Source: Candidatus Peregrinibacteria bacterium (GTDB taxonomy: Bacteria > Patescibacteriota > Gracilibacteria > UBA1369 > JABINC01). From it: 48,397 bases of DNA. The first letter of the stretch is position 1; every line of letters starts with the position of its first letter. Below are positions 10,965 through 48,397 of the stretch, one piece after another. A program made the translations under genes and the position numbers. Location of the stretch: contig JAUYJN010000018.1 in NCBI GenBank assembly GCA_030700255.1, positions 1 to 48,397 of the forward strand, read 5' to 3'. Under the pieces are notes generated by a model. That model was not told the DNA's origin, made no database searches, and worked only from the letters and a program-made list of their open reading frames with translations.

Positions 10965-11945
10965 ATGAATCCAAAAATTAAACTTATTTTTTTCGGCACA
11001 CCGGAGATTGCTGTCAAATGCCTTGAGGCTCTCAAGTCAGATAGCTCTTTTGAGATTTTAGCTGTTATTACTCAAGAAGATAAACCTGTTGGCAGAAAGA
11101 AAGTGATGACGCCACCGGACGTAAAAGTATACGCAGAGTCTGTGGGTATCCCTGTTTATCAGCCGACAAATATAAGCGATGACGTGTCATTGTATGAGCA
11201 GCTCGCCTTGCTTCCGCCAGATTACAATGTCGTAGTGGCATATGGGCAGATAATGTCACAAAAGTGGTTAGATCTTCCCTGTCTTCGCTCCGTCAATTTG
11301 CACGTTTCTTTATTGCCGAAGTATCGAGGAGCTTCTCCTATGCAAGAAACTTTGAAGCATGGAGATACGACGACCGGAGTTTCTATTCAAGAAATGGCAT
11401 TTTTGATAGATACCGGAGGTATTTTATCTCAAGAAGAATTTGAAATTGAACCAAATGATACATTCTTGGAAATCTATGAAAAAGCAGGTTCTATAGGTGC
11501 CCGCCTTCTCGTTGAAACCTTGAAGTCCGATTTTGACGCAACTTCTGATCAAGGACGTCTTACAGGTACCATACAAGACAACTCGAAGGCTTCTTATTGC
11601 ACCAAGATCACCAAGGAAGATGGATTTGTCGATTTTGCAACTCTGACAGCTACAGAAATTTATAATAAATACCGAGCTTACAAATTATGGCCGGGAATAT
11701 GGACCATGATGGGTGGTAAGAGAATGAAGCTGACAGAGGTTATGACTTTACCGGATGCTGACTTTGAAAATCTTGCGAACTCCGGACAGATGGCCGGTTT
11801 AGATGACGACTCTACTCTTAAGAGTATGAGCAAGACAAAAGACCGTCTTTTTGCAAGATGCGAAGAGGGAATTCTCGAGATTCTAAGATGTCAGGTTGAA
11901 GGCGGCACAGAGATCAGTGCGGAAGAGTTTTTGCGTGGGAATTAG
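10965..11945 (+). CDS. fmt: Methionyl-tRNA formyltransferase
   Basis: Formylates initiator Met-tRNA using 10-formyl-tetrahydrofolate. The start at 10965 (MNPKIKLIFFGTPEIA) is chosen over an ATG 90 bases upstream because the family begins with the KIxFFGTPE strand, and the upstream ATG would overlap rbfA. HVSLLPKYRGASP carries the catalytic His and formyl-binding loop. A C-terminal OB-like domain ends with SAEEFLRG. The protein is 326 residues. A linker near its C-terminus (LDDDSTLKSMSKTKD) is encoded in part by the 14-bp palindrome at 11813-11826. Confidence 0.95.
   Translation: MNPKIKLIFFGTPEIAVKCLEALKSDSSFEILAVITQEDKPVGRKKVMTPPDVKVYAESVGIPVYQPTNISDDVSLYEQLALLPPDYNVVVAYGQIMSQKWLDLPCLRSVNLHVSLLPKYRGASPMQETLKHGDTTTGVSIQEMAFLIDTGGILSQEEFEIEPNDTFLEIYEKAGSIGARLLVETLKSDFDATSDQGRLTGTIQDNSKASYCTKITKEDGFVDFATLTATEIYNKYRAYKLWPGIWTMMGGKRMKLTEVMTLPDADFENLANSGQMAGLDDDSTLKSMSKTKDRLFARCEEGILEILRCQVEGGTEISAEEFLRGN
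11813..11826. repeat. Palindrome TACTCTTAAGAGTA inside fmt
   Basis: A perfect 14-bp palindrome sharing its core with the spacer elements at 19108 and 30025 and with the HNH gene copy at 16491. Here it encodes Thr-Leu-Lys-Ser in a C-terminal linker of Fmt. Confidence 0.75.
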
Positions 11946-15887: not shown

Positions 15888-16967
15888 TCATTCTTTTCTG
15901 TACATATGTACCTTTGAGTCGATTGAGAGTTTGTTTTTGCCCTCAAGAGTTTTATTTAGTTCCTCTTTGTGTAATAGGTTTCCTGTTTGCCACATGTCGC
16001 TTTGGTTATCTTCATTTATAATTTCACCGGTGTGTGCAAGTAGCTCATGTTTTTTGCATATTGGGACTATTGATTCCGAATTATGATTCTTATTTAATGC
16101 AAACCGTTTTATATGATGTAAAATCATCCCTGCATTCCTACAGTTTGGGTAGGCGCAACGTCCTTCATGTTTTTCACGTATGGCTTTTTTTATTGCTTCG
16201 GGTATGTATCGAGAGGTTTCATCGGTTTTTTCTGATTTTTGTTTTTTTACTTCTTTTGAATTTGTATTTCTTGAAGTTTTGGTATTCGTTGTTTTACATT
16301 TTTTCACGACTTCTTCCATAAATTCATTCCACGTAAGCGTTATTTTCCTTTCTTTTTCAATCGCTTGTTTTAAATATCTAAGTTGGAATTCTGTCTCCGG
16401 ACTTACTGCAAATGATAAAGTGGTCCATTTGTTTTCATGGAAATGACCATAGCCTTCGTTTGCGATACTTTCTATTTGTTCTGCAGCTTTACTCTTAAGA
16501 GTTAGATCATTATTTATTCTTGGATTTTGTCCGGATTCTTGATTGTTTCTGAATTCTTGTACAAATACCTCAAGGGCTTGTTGTGGCATACTCTTAACTT
16601 TTTCCGCCCATTTCCCATCCGTTTCTTTCGTTGCTACCCATGCAACTTTTTCTATTTTACTCCAACCTTGATCTCCGGATATGAGTAGATTTTTCAGAGC
16701 AGGTTTATCTTCAACTTTTATGGCAATTCTTAGTATTTTACCGGTTGCTTCATGGCTCATTCCGGCAAGCTTGCCGGCGAATTCGTATATTGAGGAAAAT
16801 CCACGTTTTTTGTGGAGTTCTCTTTTTGCAACTTCCGGTAAGAGGCCTGCGAATTTACGTTTCCAGATTCTGGTTTGGAGTCCAAAGTCTTTGCACTTTT
16901 GATAAAGTTCGGAATCGGAAAGGGATTCTATTTCTAAACTTATACAGATACGGCCGGTTGTGTTCAT
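15888..16967 (-). CDS. HNH endonuclease domain protein (DUF222-like)
   Basis: A 359-residue protein with an N-terminal helical region (to about 150) of the type found in DUF222-like HNH proteins (KRELHKKRGFSSIYEFA), a middle variable linker, and a C-terminal HNH domain. The latter shows RCAYPNCRNAGMILHHIKRF with two Cys and the HH pair, and VPICKKHELLAHTGE with a further Cys and His; together they give a zinc-stabilised HNH nuclease site. Such genes occur in multiple copies in many Patescibacteria; their function (mobile element, defence or repair) is unsettled. It ends in TGA and has the palindrome core at 16491-16502. Confidence 0.85.
   Translation of the reverse strand: MNTTGRICISLEIESLSDSELYQKCKDFGLQTRIWKRKFAGLLPEVAKRELHKKRGFSSIYEFAGKLAGMSHEATGKILRIAIKVEDKPALKNLLISGDQGWSKIEKVAWVATKETDGKWAEKVKSMPQQALEVFVQEFRNNQESGQNPRINNDLTLKSKAAEQIESIANEGYGHFHENKWTTLSFAVSPETEFQLRYLKQAIEKERKITLTWNEFMEEVVKKCKTTNTKTSRNTNSKEVKKQKSEKTDETSRYIPEAIKKAIREKHEGRCAYPNCRNAGMILHHIKRFALNKNHNSESIVPICKKHELLAHTGEIINEDNQSDMWQTGNLLHKEELNKTLEGKNKLSIDSKVHMYRKE
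16491..16502. repeat. Palindrome core ACTCTTAAGAGT inside the HNH gene
   Basis: A perfect 12-bp palindrome equal to the core of the elements at 11813, 19108 and 30025. On the coding strand it encodes Thr-Leu-Lys-Ser, just as in fmt, in the linker before the HNH domain. Confidence 0.7.
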
Positions 16968-19051: not shown

Positions 19052-19107
19052 CCTGAAAGTTCAGCTGGGTTGGTAGGTTAAACATGCCCTGAGGATGGCT
19101 TGTGATG

Positions 19108-19123
19108 TTACTCTTAAGAGTAA
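19108..19123. repeat. 16-bp palindrome TTACTCTTAAGAGTAA before pgk
   Basis: A perfect palindrome in the ribH-pgk spacer, 52 bases before the pgk start. The surrounding bases 19099-19130 match those at 30016-30047 at 29 of 32 positions, so the two spacers share a true repeat and not only the palindrome. Possible roles are an operator, a small dispersed repeat or a protein-binding chromosome site. Confidence 0.8.
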
Positions 19124-19175
19124 AGTTGCTCAATAAACTGGAAATATCGCAAATTATATTCATAATAATTTAAAA

Positions 19176-20369
19176 ATGGCTCTCAAAACTCTCAAAGACG
19201 TGGATCTCAAGTTCAAACGTGTACTTTTGCGTGTGGATTTTAATGTTCCTCTGGATAAAGAAACCGGCGAAATTCAGGATAATACTAGGATAGTTGCCGC
19301 GATGAATACTATTTACGATATTCTGGATGGTGGAGTGACTGAGCTTGTTATCATGACTCATTTAGGGCGACCAAAAGGTGAGAAAGTCCCTACTCTATCT
19401 ACCAAGGTTCTTGCAGAAGAATTGAGTAATATTATGGGGGAAGAGGTCCTGCATGTGAGTGATTGTGTTGGGATTCCATGTAAAAGTCAGGATCATAGAG
19501 TTTTTATGCTTGAAAATGTGAGATTCCATCCGGAAGAGAAAAAAGGCGATGAAGGGTTCGCAAAGAAATTGGCAGAGCATGGAGATGTTTTTATTAATGA
19601 TGCATTTGCAGTGTGTCATAGAGATGAGGCGTCCGTTACTACTGTAGCCAAGGTGATGCAGGCTGAGGGTAAGGCTATAGCTGCTGGGCGTTTGGTAGAA
19701 AAAGAAGCCGAAATGCTTGGGAAGATTTTGGAAAATCCAAAAGCTCCTTTTGTGATGATAGTGAGTGGTGCAAAGGTTGATACGAAAATAGGAATGATTC
19801 AGAATTTTTATGACAAAGTGGATACTTTTATACTTGGTGGCGGAATTGCGAATACATTTTTGGCTGCAGAAGGATTTGATGTTGCAGACTCTTTATATGA
19901 AGAAGACAAAGTTGAACTTGCTCGTGAAATTTTGGTTGCTTGTAGCGAACATGTAAATGAAGTCGTGATCCCAACCGATGCGATGGTTGCCTCAGAGTTC
20001 AGTGCAACGGCAGAGGCGGCGCATGTACCGGTTGAAGATGTGATGGGTGATATGAGAATCCTTGATTTAGGTAGTAATACAATTGATCGATGTGTTGAAA
20101 TTTTATCAAATGCCGAAATGATTGTTTGGAATGGCCCTCTTGGAGTTTATGAATTCCCACAATTTATGGAAGGTACAAAGCGTATTGCGGAGGCTATCGC
20201 AGCAAACAAAAATGCAACTACCGTTATCGGCGGTGGAGATACTGTAGATGCTGTAAACAAACTTGGAATTTCATTCAAAGAATACACTCACGTGTCTACC
20301 GGAGGTGGAGCGATGGTTGAATTTTTGGAAGGTAAGGTTCTCCCTGGGATTGAGGTGCTGATGGACTAA
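19176..20369 (+). CDS. pgk: Phosphoglycerate kinase
   Basis: Makes ATP from 1,3-bisphosphoglycerate in glycolysis. The 397-residue, two-lobed enzyme is of normal length. Visible signatures are RVLLRVDFNVPLD (N-lobe substrate loop), MTHLGRPKG, LENVRFHPEEKKGD, INDAFAVCHRDEASV, SGAKVDTKI and, in the nucleotide lobe, VIGGGDTVDAV and VSTGGGAMVEFLEGK. It has its own 124-bp upstream spacer with the palindromic repeat and probably its own promoter. Confidence 0.97.
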   Translation: MALKTLKDVDLKFKRVLLRVDFNVPLDKETGEIQDNTRIVAAMNTIYDILDGGVTELVIMTHLGRPKGEKVPTLSTKVLAEELSNIMGEEVLHVSDCVGIPCKSQDHRVFMLENVRFHPEEKKGDEGFAKKLAEHGDVFINDAFAVCHRDEASVTTVAKVMQAEGKAIAAGRLVEKEAEMLGKILENPKAPFVMIVSGAKVDTKIGMIQNFYDKVDTFILGGGIANTFLAAEGFDVADSLYEEDKVELAREILVACSEHVNEVVIPTDAMVASEFSATAEAAHVPVEDVMGDMRILDLGSNTIDRCVEILSNAEMIVWNGPLGVYEFPQFMEGTKRIAEAIAANKNATTVIGGGDTVDAVNKLGISFKEYTHVSTGGGAMVEFLEGKVLPGIEVLMD

Positions 20370-28483: not shown

Positions 28484-29989
28484 CTAGGTATAGACATATG
28501 ACCCACCCCTCAGTGAGTGATTACCAGCATCACAACAGCAACCACCGCCACCACAGCCACTGCCATCTTCCATGCCTCCGCTTATGTACATATCTACGAG
28601 TTGTACAGCTTCGCCTATATAATTCATAGGTGACATTTTTTTAAGACGTGTGCGCTCAGATGCAGGAAGGTCTTTTAATCCATCGATGAATTTTTCAAAT
28701 GATTTTTGGTCTACTTTTTTGCCGCGAGTGAATTCTTTCAGTTTTTCATATGGTTTTTCTATGCCGTACCTGCGCATGACTGTTTGGATGGGTTCGGCCA
28801 AAACTTCCCAGTGCGAATCTAGATCGCGCGCAAGCGCACCTTTGTTGATTTCGAGTTTGCCGAGACCTTTGATGGTGCTTTCAAAAGCGATTAAGCTGTA
28901 GCCGAAGGCGACTCCCATATTGCGGAGTACTGTTGAGTCGGTCAGGTCTCGTTGCATGCGCGAGATTGGGAGTTTTTCGCTTAGGTGGCCGAGGACTGCG
29001 TTTGCGAGTCCGAGGTTGCCTTCACTATTTTCAAAATCTATTGGGTTTACTTTGTGTGGCATGGTGGATGATCCAACTTCTCCTTTTACCGATTTTTGTG
29101 TGAAATAACCTAGGCTGACATAATTCCATATATCACGATCAAGGTCGATAAGTATCGTATTAATTCTTCTTATATTATCGAAAATTTCAGCCATGTAGTC
29201 ATGATTTTCTATTTGAGTTGTAAATAAATTTGGTGTGAGATTTAAATGTTCGATAAACCCTTCTCCGATAGTTGCCCAATCCCAGTCGGGGTATGCGCTT
29301 AAATGTGCATTGTAGTTCCCTACAGCTCCATTGAACTTGCCAAGATAGCTTGAATTTAGAAGTTGTGATAGTTGGCGCTCAAGTCGTGCGACAAATACTA
29401 TTAATTCTTTACCAACCGTAGTCGGAGTCGCCGATTGTCCATGAGTTCTTGATAGCATTGGGACTGCTTTATGTTCAGCCGCAAGAGCTTTTAAGTTCAT
29501 ATTCAACATAAATAAAGTCGGAACGATCACTTCTTCGATAGAATCTCTGAGCATCATTGCGTGGCATAAATTATTGATATCCTCTGACGTGCATCCAAAA
29601 TGTATAAATTCTAAAACATCTTTTAGTGAGCTTTTCTTTAGCTTTTCTTTCATGAAATATTCTACGGCTTTTACATCGTGATTTGTAGTTTTTTCTATAT
29701 CTTTTATGTGTGCCGCTGCGGTTTCATCAAATTCAATATATAATTTTTGTAATAAATCTATTTCTTTTTCACTTAGCTCCCTAGTCCCTTCGAGCCTTTT
29801 TGGTTCACTTCCGGCATTTTCTACGTATTGAACTGAATTACACATAAAAATAAGCCACTCTACTTCGGTAATTATTCTATATCTTTGAAGAGCCGCTTCC
29901 GAAAAAAAACTCGTTAGTGAACGTGTTTTGTCGTTATATCTCCCATCTAGCGGTGAAAGATTGAAAAGTGAATGTAGGTTTTGATCCAT
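28484..29989 (-). CDS. purB: Adenylosuccinate lyase with Cys/Gly-rich C-terminal tail
   Basis: Cleaves SAICAR to AICAR and adenylosuccinate to AMP. The 501-residue fumarase-superfamily enzyme starts LFNLSPLDGRYNDKTRSLTSFF, as in the longer E. coli-type PurB, and has the mobile-loop signature SSTMPHKVNPIDFEN (about 305-319) and an active-site RTHGQSATPTT. After YIGEAVQLVDMYI the body ends; a tail of about 30 residues follows with GSGCGGGGCCCDAGN (four Cys), unlike normal PurB. It might bind a metal ion or be a lipid/redox tag (inference). Its 96-bp upstream spacer holds the 16-bp palindrome. Confidence 0.96.
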   Translation of the reverse strand: MDQNLHSLFNLSPLDGRYNDKTRSLTSFFSEAALQRYRIITEVEWLIFMCNSVQYVENAGSEPKRLEGTRELSEKEIDLLQKLYIEFDETAAAHIKDIEKTTNHDVKAVEYFMKEKLKKSSLKDVLEFIHFGCTSEDINNLCHAMMLRDSIEEVIVPTLFMLNMNLKALAAEHKAVPMLSRTHGQSATPTTVGKELIVFVARLERQLSQLLNSSYLGKFNGAVGNYNAHLSAYPDWDWATIGEGFIEHLNLTPNLFTTQIENHDYMAEIFDNIRRINTILIDLDRDIWNYVSLGYFTQKSVKGEVGSSTMPHKVNPIDFENSEGNLGLANAVLGHLSEKLPISRMQRDLTDSTVLRNMGVAFGYSLIAFESTIKGLGKLEINKGALARDLDSHWEVLAEPIQTVMRRYGIEKPYEKLKEFTRGKKVDQKSFEKFIDGLKDLPASERTRLKKMSPMNYIGEAVQLVDMYISGGMEDGSGCGGGGCCCDAGNHSLRGGSYVYT

Positions 29990-30024
29990 GAGAGGTTGTT
30001 AAATTGTTGACTTACCTTGTAATG

Positions 30025-30040
30025 TTACTCTTAAGAGTAA
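30025..30040. repeat. 16-bp palindrome TTACTCTTAAGAGTAA before purB
   Basis: Identical to the palindrome at 19108-19123, and within a 32-bp block of 29 matches to that site. It lies 35 bases before the purB start. The shared block is on the same DNA strand in both places while the downstream genes face opposite ways. Confidence 0.8.
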
Positions 30041-30085
30041 AGTTCTTTGCCTGTTAATTGAATACGTCAATTTTATTTGAGAATC

Positions 30086-48194: not shown

Positions 48195-48397
48195 ACAAAT
48201 TGGGCAATGCTATGCGCGAAGTTTGCCAGCTGAACGCCGTGTTTCAAAGGCTGTGCGCGCGCACACGTCTTGAACACCGTGCTTCAGATGTCATTCTTAA
48301 GAACAAGCCATGAAGTACGTATTTGATAGACTATTTTATGAGAGAAATGTGTCTGGGAGTGTTTTTTTTAGCAAGGCATAAAAACCAAATTGTACGG
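48195..48397. other. Gene-free right edge, GC-rich and repetitive
   Basis: No gene is supported. A frame shifted relative to ribD stays open to 48313 and may be the original ribD end. The stretch holds the 14-bp palindrome TGTGCGCGCGCACA (48252-48265), flanked by two direct copies (13 of 15 matching) of GAACGCCGTGTTTCA (48232-48246 and 48272-48286), and the 10-bp palindrome TTCTTAAGAA (48294-48303). It is richer in G and C than nearby genes. Confidence 0.5.

Follow-up and report, generated by a model that had tools for sequence, protein, structure and literature searches.

What kind of element is the perfect 16-bp palindrome, TTACTCTTAAGAGTAA, that stands in two intergenic spacers, ribH|pgk and purE|purB, on one contig of a Candidatus Peregrinibacteria bacterium? 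A preliminary description of the window (here, the whole stretch of 48,397 nucleotides that was analysed) had proposed a symmetric protein-binding site or a dispersed repeat. Both halves of that proposal appear to be true. The key is a copy to which that description gave little attention, at 16491 inside an HNH-nuclease gene, as most genes of this family carry a palindrome of their own.

The palindrome in the window and across the genome

The two 16-bp palindromes and four exact copies of their 12-bp core, ACTCTTAAGAGT (beginning at 11814, 16491, 19110, and 30027), were found exactly where the preliminary description had placed them. The 32-bp stretches around the pgk and purB sites (19099-19130 and 30016-30047) are identical at 29 of 32 positions, as had been reported. 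Upstream distances are 52 bp for pgk, which starts at 19176, and 35 bp for purB, which starts at 29989 on the minus strand, reproducing the spacing of 35-52 bases given earlier. The coordinates of all features are collected in Table 1.

The assertion that four cores could not have arisen by chance was borne out by the count over the whole genome against a Markov background. Models of orders 1-4 expect 0.001-0.003 copies of ACTCTTAAGAGT in the window, where there are 4, and 0.04-0.09 in the 1.37-Mb genome, where there are 11; these background statistics were taken from stretches totalling ~0.63 Mb, some picked because they bear a site. The reversed pattern, used as a control, gave 0 copies in the genome. 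Besides those before pgk and purB, sites were located 5' of argH and in the gatC|gatA and thyA|folA spacers; three other spacers have sites, and three genes (uvrC, fmt, and the HNH gene) contain one each.

A coincidental repeat, or a conventional promoter or terminator motif common to two spacers, would suit sites standing so close upstream of two genes. We give this reading a negligible probability: there are 11 copies where fewer than 0.1 are expected, the corresponding spacers of a congener (G001) are without the motif, and both the whole-genome count and the cross-genome predictions described below already refute it. The preliminary argument against a shared promoter also holds, since the orientation of the sites relative to the genes is inconsistent and copies exist within genes.

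Across the whole genome the 16-mer was found 7 times exactly, once with one mismatch, and 3 times with two. At up to three mismatches the count was 23 compared to 19 for the control, and there were almost no near-misses; the 11-copy set thus resembles neither a regulon nor a repeat that is old and decayed. A regulon with degenerate sites was therefore rejected, there being no clear excess beyond the exact and near-exact copies. A broadly conserved motif was rejected as well: an 18-bp form of the palindrome gave only 3 stray, unrelated matches in a public collection of 84,980 species genomes, and motif matches occurred in 4 of 40 genomes searched, its own included. The dispersed palindrome is neither a degenerate regulon motif nor a chance repeat.

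Table 1. Positions in the window of the palindromes, their surroundings, and the HNH gene
Feature	Position	Strand	Remark
In-frame palindrome inside fmt, dispersed site 3	11814..11825	no strand	Surrounding stretch ~14 aa longer than in the G001 orthologue
HNH-nuclease gene, 359 aa, proposed cognate protein	15888..16967	-	One of ~30 family copies in the genome
C-terminal zinc HNH nuclease domain, limits approximate	15978..16214	-	Weak IscB HNH similarity
ACTCTTAAGAGT in the interdomain linker of the HNH gene	16491..16502	no strand	16489-16504 with one mismatch; centred on a codon boundary (ACT CTT AAG AGT)
N-terminal domain of the HNH protein	16539..16925	-	ParB/Noc-like DNA-binding fold predicted
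Probable inserted stretch around the pgk site, ends approximate	19052..19153	+	ribH|pgk spacer ~35 bp or less in congener G001
Perfect 16-bp palindrome TTACTCTTAAGAGTAA, ribH|pgk spacer, dispersed site 1	19108..19123	no strand	
purE|purB spacer with site	29990..30085	-	96 bp here; ~20 bp and palindrome-free in G001
Perfect 16-bp palindrome, purE|purB spacer, dispersed site 2	30025..30040	no strand	

Palindromes in the linkers of HNH-family genes

With fragments of a single gene in some cases counted separately, the HNH family has 43 matches in the present genome; eight relatives have 4-19 each. Within a sample of 145 genomes of the phylum it was confined to members of the same order, and no relative was found among phage records. 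A perfect palindrome of at least 12 bp is present in the linker between the two domains in 33 of 47 non-redundant two-domain genes of the order, with 24 different cores. The other 14 genes lack a perfect linker palindrome, and several of these have one with a single mismatch. Palindrome density is 2.2 per kb in the linkers versus 0.48 in the N-domains and 0.11 in the C-domains, and 33 of 34 linker palindromes are centred on a codon boundary. Three held-out genomes, fetched later and with their 16 genes counted within the 47, had a linker palindrome in 12 of the 16; palindromes of at least 14 bp numbered 9 against 1.09 expected.

Inverted repeats in the linkers peak at a spacer of 0, with 34 compared to ~3.5 at any other spacer. 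This fits a symmetric double-stranded site, as a dimer needs symmetry through the centre and a folded RNA tolerates an unpaired loop; an RNA hairpin is disfavoured for the same reason. Many of the palindromes found have CACGTG or CCCGGG at their centres.

Several HNH copies in genome G010 (C67, C55, C27, C44, C38, and C3) have one in-frame TGA each, which could reflect shared decay or TGA read as sense in that genome. The ends of the contig (window 1-344 and 48189-48397) are multi-copy repeats common to other contig ends. Many contig ends fall in HNH-family genes or their palindromes, such as TGTGCGCGCGCACA at 48252-48265, and the family therefore seems to break assembly.

Gene and site switch together between genomes

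In 390-kb samples of G013 and G012, the palindromes of resident HNH genes occurred 5 times each outside those genes, where 0.26 and 0.07 were expected, respectively. The G001 orthologue of the window HNH gene, which occupies the same neighbourhood near fmt, carries ACTCCCGGGAGT. As predicted beforehand, ACTCCCGGGAGT is dispersed in this sister species (6 copies) and has 0 copies in the present genome. One of the six lies in the gatC|gatA spacer, ~30 bp after gatC, where the present genome has ACTCTTAAGAGT; the flanks are so diverged that an inherited site and a second insertion look alike there. Dispersal was likewise predicted for the palindrome of one HNH gene of G007, CAGTCCCGGGACTG, and 6 copies were found in that genome versus 0 in six others, none of the five copies outside the source gene lying in an HNH gene.

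The preliminary description had made its reading depend on conservation of either the pgk or the purB site in related genomes. Taken literally, that expectation failed, as neither site is kept; the reading itself survives because different palindromes, matched to the resident HNH genes, are present in the relatives. The genome sequences show that gene and site are paired, that the sites are symmetric and dispersed, and that the two switch together between species.

Insertion and copying of the sites

The ribH|pgk and purE|purB spacers of G001 are short and have no palindrome, and both spacer sites of the window therefore look inserted. Positions 19103-19153 of the pgk spacer match the HNH-gene linker at 16459-16509 with 80% identity over 51 bp, in inverted orientation. 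Elsewhere in the genome, 116 bp of uvrC centred on the palindrome were copied at 97% identity into a spacer (contig C9), and up to 126 bp from the region upstream of gatA, again palindrome-centred, are duplicated in two other spacers. Sites within genes were inserted in frame. At the palindrome, fmt exceeds its G001 orthologue in length, and the uvrC loop bearing the palindrome is longer than in relatives. In G001, ispDF has a 19-aa insertion with two palindromes that is absent from the present genome. The empty sites in the congener and the copied flanking arms support the dispersed-repeat half of the preliminary proposal.

In G000, G012, and G013 the copies outside HNH genes often have arms in common with the gene linker. 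In G007 most dispersed sites have the palindrome alone in common, a pattern as compatible with selection for binding as with the copying of elements. The dispersed sites may owe something to both processes. Decayed HNH pseudogenes were rejected as the source of all copies, the only remnants being two tiny HNH pieces beside sites (L009 and L011) and one at a contig end (L002).

Such in-frame insertions in fmt, uvrC, and ispDF, together with the insertions in spacers and the duplicated palindrome-centred segments, could come from passive repeats of the Rickettsia palindromic element type. A small hairpin element would then insert in spacers and permissive loops, HNH linkers would be no more than a frequent and tolerated home, and template-switch correction would keep the symmetry with no role for the HNH protein. 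However, the homologous linker of most HNH paralogues bears a palindrome at the same codon phase, with the 24 different cores noted above, and the dispersed copies in each genome match its resident HNH gene, which local correction at each site cannot yield. The fully paired centre is also unlike a looped hairpin. We consider this origin decidedly improbable.

Several further arrangements were observed. UvrC (L010 1-2436, G000:C23) has one or more GNAT-type domain insertions, as do its relatives, and the palindrome lies in its loop. Two or three different HNH-type palindromes stand side by side in spacers (L042 9260-9411, L086 2885-3268, L078 7358-7585, L248, and L249), those of L249 being in the ispDF insertion; such spots resemble repeated landing places. 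One HNH sub-family of G000 (L044, L078, L083, and L086) has a second conserved inverted repeat, GGCTTATTTGAGCC, encoding the peptide NGLFEP, ~20 bp before the palindrome and retained in spacer copies too. A cluster of locally repeated segments at L043 3300-6600 (G000:C43) holds the palindromes CCTCCGCGCGGAGG and TTTCGGCGCCGAAA, which were tied to no HNH gene seen in the G000 sample.

The HNH protein

The protein encoded in the window consists of a helical N-domain, a linker with two helices, and the HNH domain, and nothing more. Most of the linker is predicted to be disordered, and it can thus carry an arbitrary DNA site. The C-domain matched the HNH domain of IscB with an E-value of 2.4e-5, a weak similarity, and residues C271, C276, H284, H285, C304, and H312 are invariant among 30 members.

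Searches of Pfam and NCBIfam gave no useful match naming the N-domain, and a search of its sequence profile against the PDB returned mostly designed proteins and was uninformative. Its structural model, with a pLDDT of 96.5, had as its top 11 PDB matches only chains of ParB, Noc, or Spo0J (probability 0.57-0.96, weak E-values of 0.5-1.6), the best being Noc bound to its site (TM 0.67). Given these weak E-values and the lack of any match in the present genome to the Pfam ParB HTH model (HTH_ParB, PF17762), the ParB/Noc-like DNA-binding fold is a prediction and a fold-level lead. When residue columns of the N-domain were compared to the half-sites, the correlation was dominated by the relatedness of the sequences. 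A dimer-binding site, the other half of the preliminary proposal, is favoured by zero-spacer symmetry, the predicted domain, and the co-variation of the gene with the dispersed sites.

The predicted domain would also suit a protein that acts mainly by binding DNA, repressing its own gene from the linker site and acting at spacer sites, either as a small regulon or at Noc/ParB-like nucleoid sites. The nuclease would be weak, conditional, or silent, and selection, not copying, would keep the sites identical. Sites 5' of pgk, purB, and gatA, the palindrome alone common to most G007 sites, and the orthologous gatC|gatA position with its co-switched sequence are all in keeping with such a regulatory or chromosome-organising function. 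Yet gatC|gatA is the sole spacer to keep a site among the orthologous spacers compared, some sites are within coding regions (fmt, uvrC, and ispDF), several copies have long copied arms, and a graded set of degenerate sites is missing. The Cys and His residues of the HNH domain, moreover, are invariant across the 30 members. On this evidence we regard a mainly regulatory function as unlikely.

Discussion

The above considerations make it probable, in our judgement, that the HNH protein encoded in the window, whose own gene carries a copy of the palindrome, recognises this sequence as its site, and that the palindrome has spread genome-wide by a repair-driven process. In the protein, a ParB/Noc-like DNA-binding domain, acting as a dimer on symmetric sites, would be joined to a zinc HNH nuclease domain; the palindrome in the linker between both would be the protein's own recognition site. 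Most likely, the protein would bind the palindrome and nick or cut there, and repair would then copy palindrome-centred segments elsewhere. The site with arms of ~15-120 bp would in this way enter spacers and, in frame, permissive loops of other genes. Enzyme and site would diversify together, and every genome would come to have its own matched families of genes and sites. We infer that a ParB-like dimer binds, that the HNH domain nicks or cuts, and that repair drives the spread. A counter-point is that the nuclease would be expected to cut the intact copy in its own gene, and the model explains no protection.

The family fails at least one defining test of each of four known systems, namely homing enzymes, Rickettsia palindromic elements, ParB, and REP/RAYT. 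It has the HNH zinc motif of HNH endonucleases with the invariant Cys and His residues, and it resembles free-standing HNH homing endonucleases and the HNH/13E12 (DUF222) repeats of mycobacteria in having multi-copy, probably mobile HNH genes. Homing enzymes normally have no intact site in their own gene, whose insertion disrupts it, whereas 33 of the 47 genes here carry an intact palindrome, if the palindrome is the target. Pfam scans of 30 members (E up to 1) matched 48 families, and DUF222 is missing from the 25 most frequent, a distinction from the 13E12 repeats. Rickettsia palindromic elements are palindromic insertions in spacers and in frame within genes, and both kinds of insertion are seen here. 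Such elements are not known to depend on a particular enzyme gene; the present palindromes differ in being linked to one protein family with many different palindromes and in following the resident HNH gene.

ParB binds parS and Noc binds NBS, palindromes of the forms TGTTTCAC-GTGAAACA and TATTTCCC-GGGAAATA (PMC7383237). The perfect palindromes with CACGTG or CCCGGG centres are similar, and the DNA-binding fold is predicted, with weak E-values, to be so, but the HNH proteins have an HNH nuclease with no N-terminal CTPase domain seen, many specificities, a site inside the gene, and no match to HTH_ParB. The closest logic is that of REP/RAYT systems (TnpA-REP transposases and REPINs), in which short palindromes occur mainly between genes and every palindrome type has its own partner enzyme gene in the genome that bears it (PMC3116915). 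The present genomes likewise have scattered palindromes outside genes that correspond to a resident enzyme gene, although the enzymes are unrelated: RAYT is an HUH Y1 tyrosine transposase, whereas the HNH protein combines a zinc HNH nuclease domain with a predicted ParB/Noc-like one. Moreover, REP palindromes flank the enzyme gene, in contrast to a site inside the coding region, in the linker, and the palindromes here are perfect to the centre.

The pairing of gene and site was matched to no described system. The search covered the open-access literature, where no description of such pairing was found, and the novelty is provisional. We are evenly divided on whether these are a new class of selfish or self-regulating nuclease genes that carry their own recognition palindrome in coding sequence, seed matched palindromes genome-wide, and switch specificity and sites together between species. 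Dozens of enzyme-site pairs would then form a natural library.

The family seems to explain part of the repeat content at which this assembly breaks. If the proposed reading is true, each gene displays the target of its own product, so that the DNA specificity of dozens of uncharacterised proteins would be readable from sequence, and testable. Questions about the origin of dispersed palindromes in bacterial genomes would then extend to a non-HUH enzyme family, which would also provide a natural series for studying how the specificity of a protein and its site change jointly.
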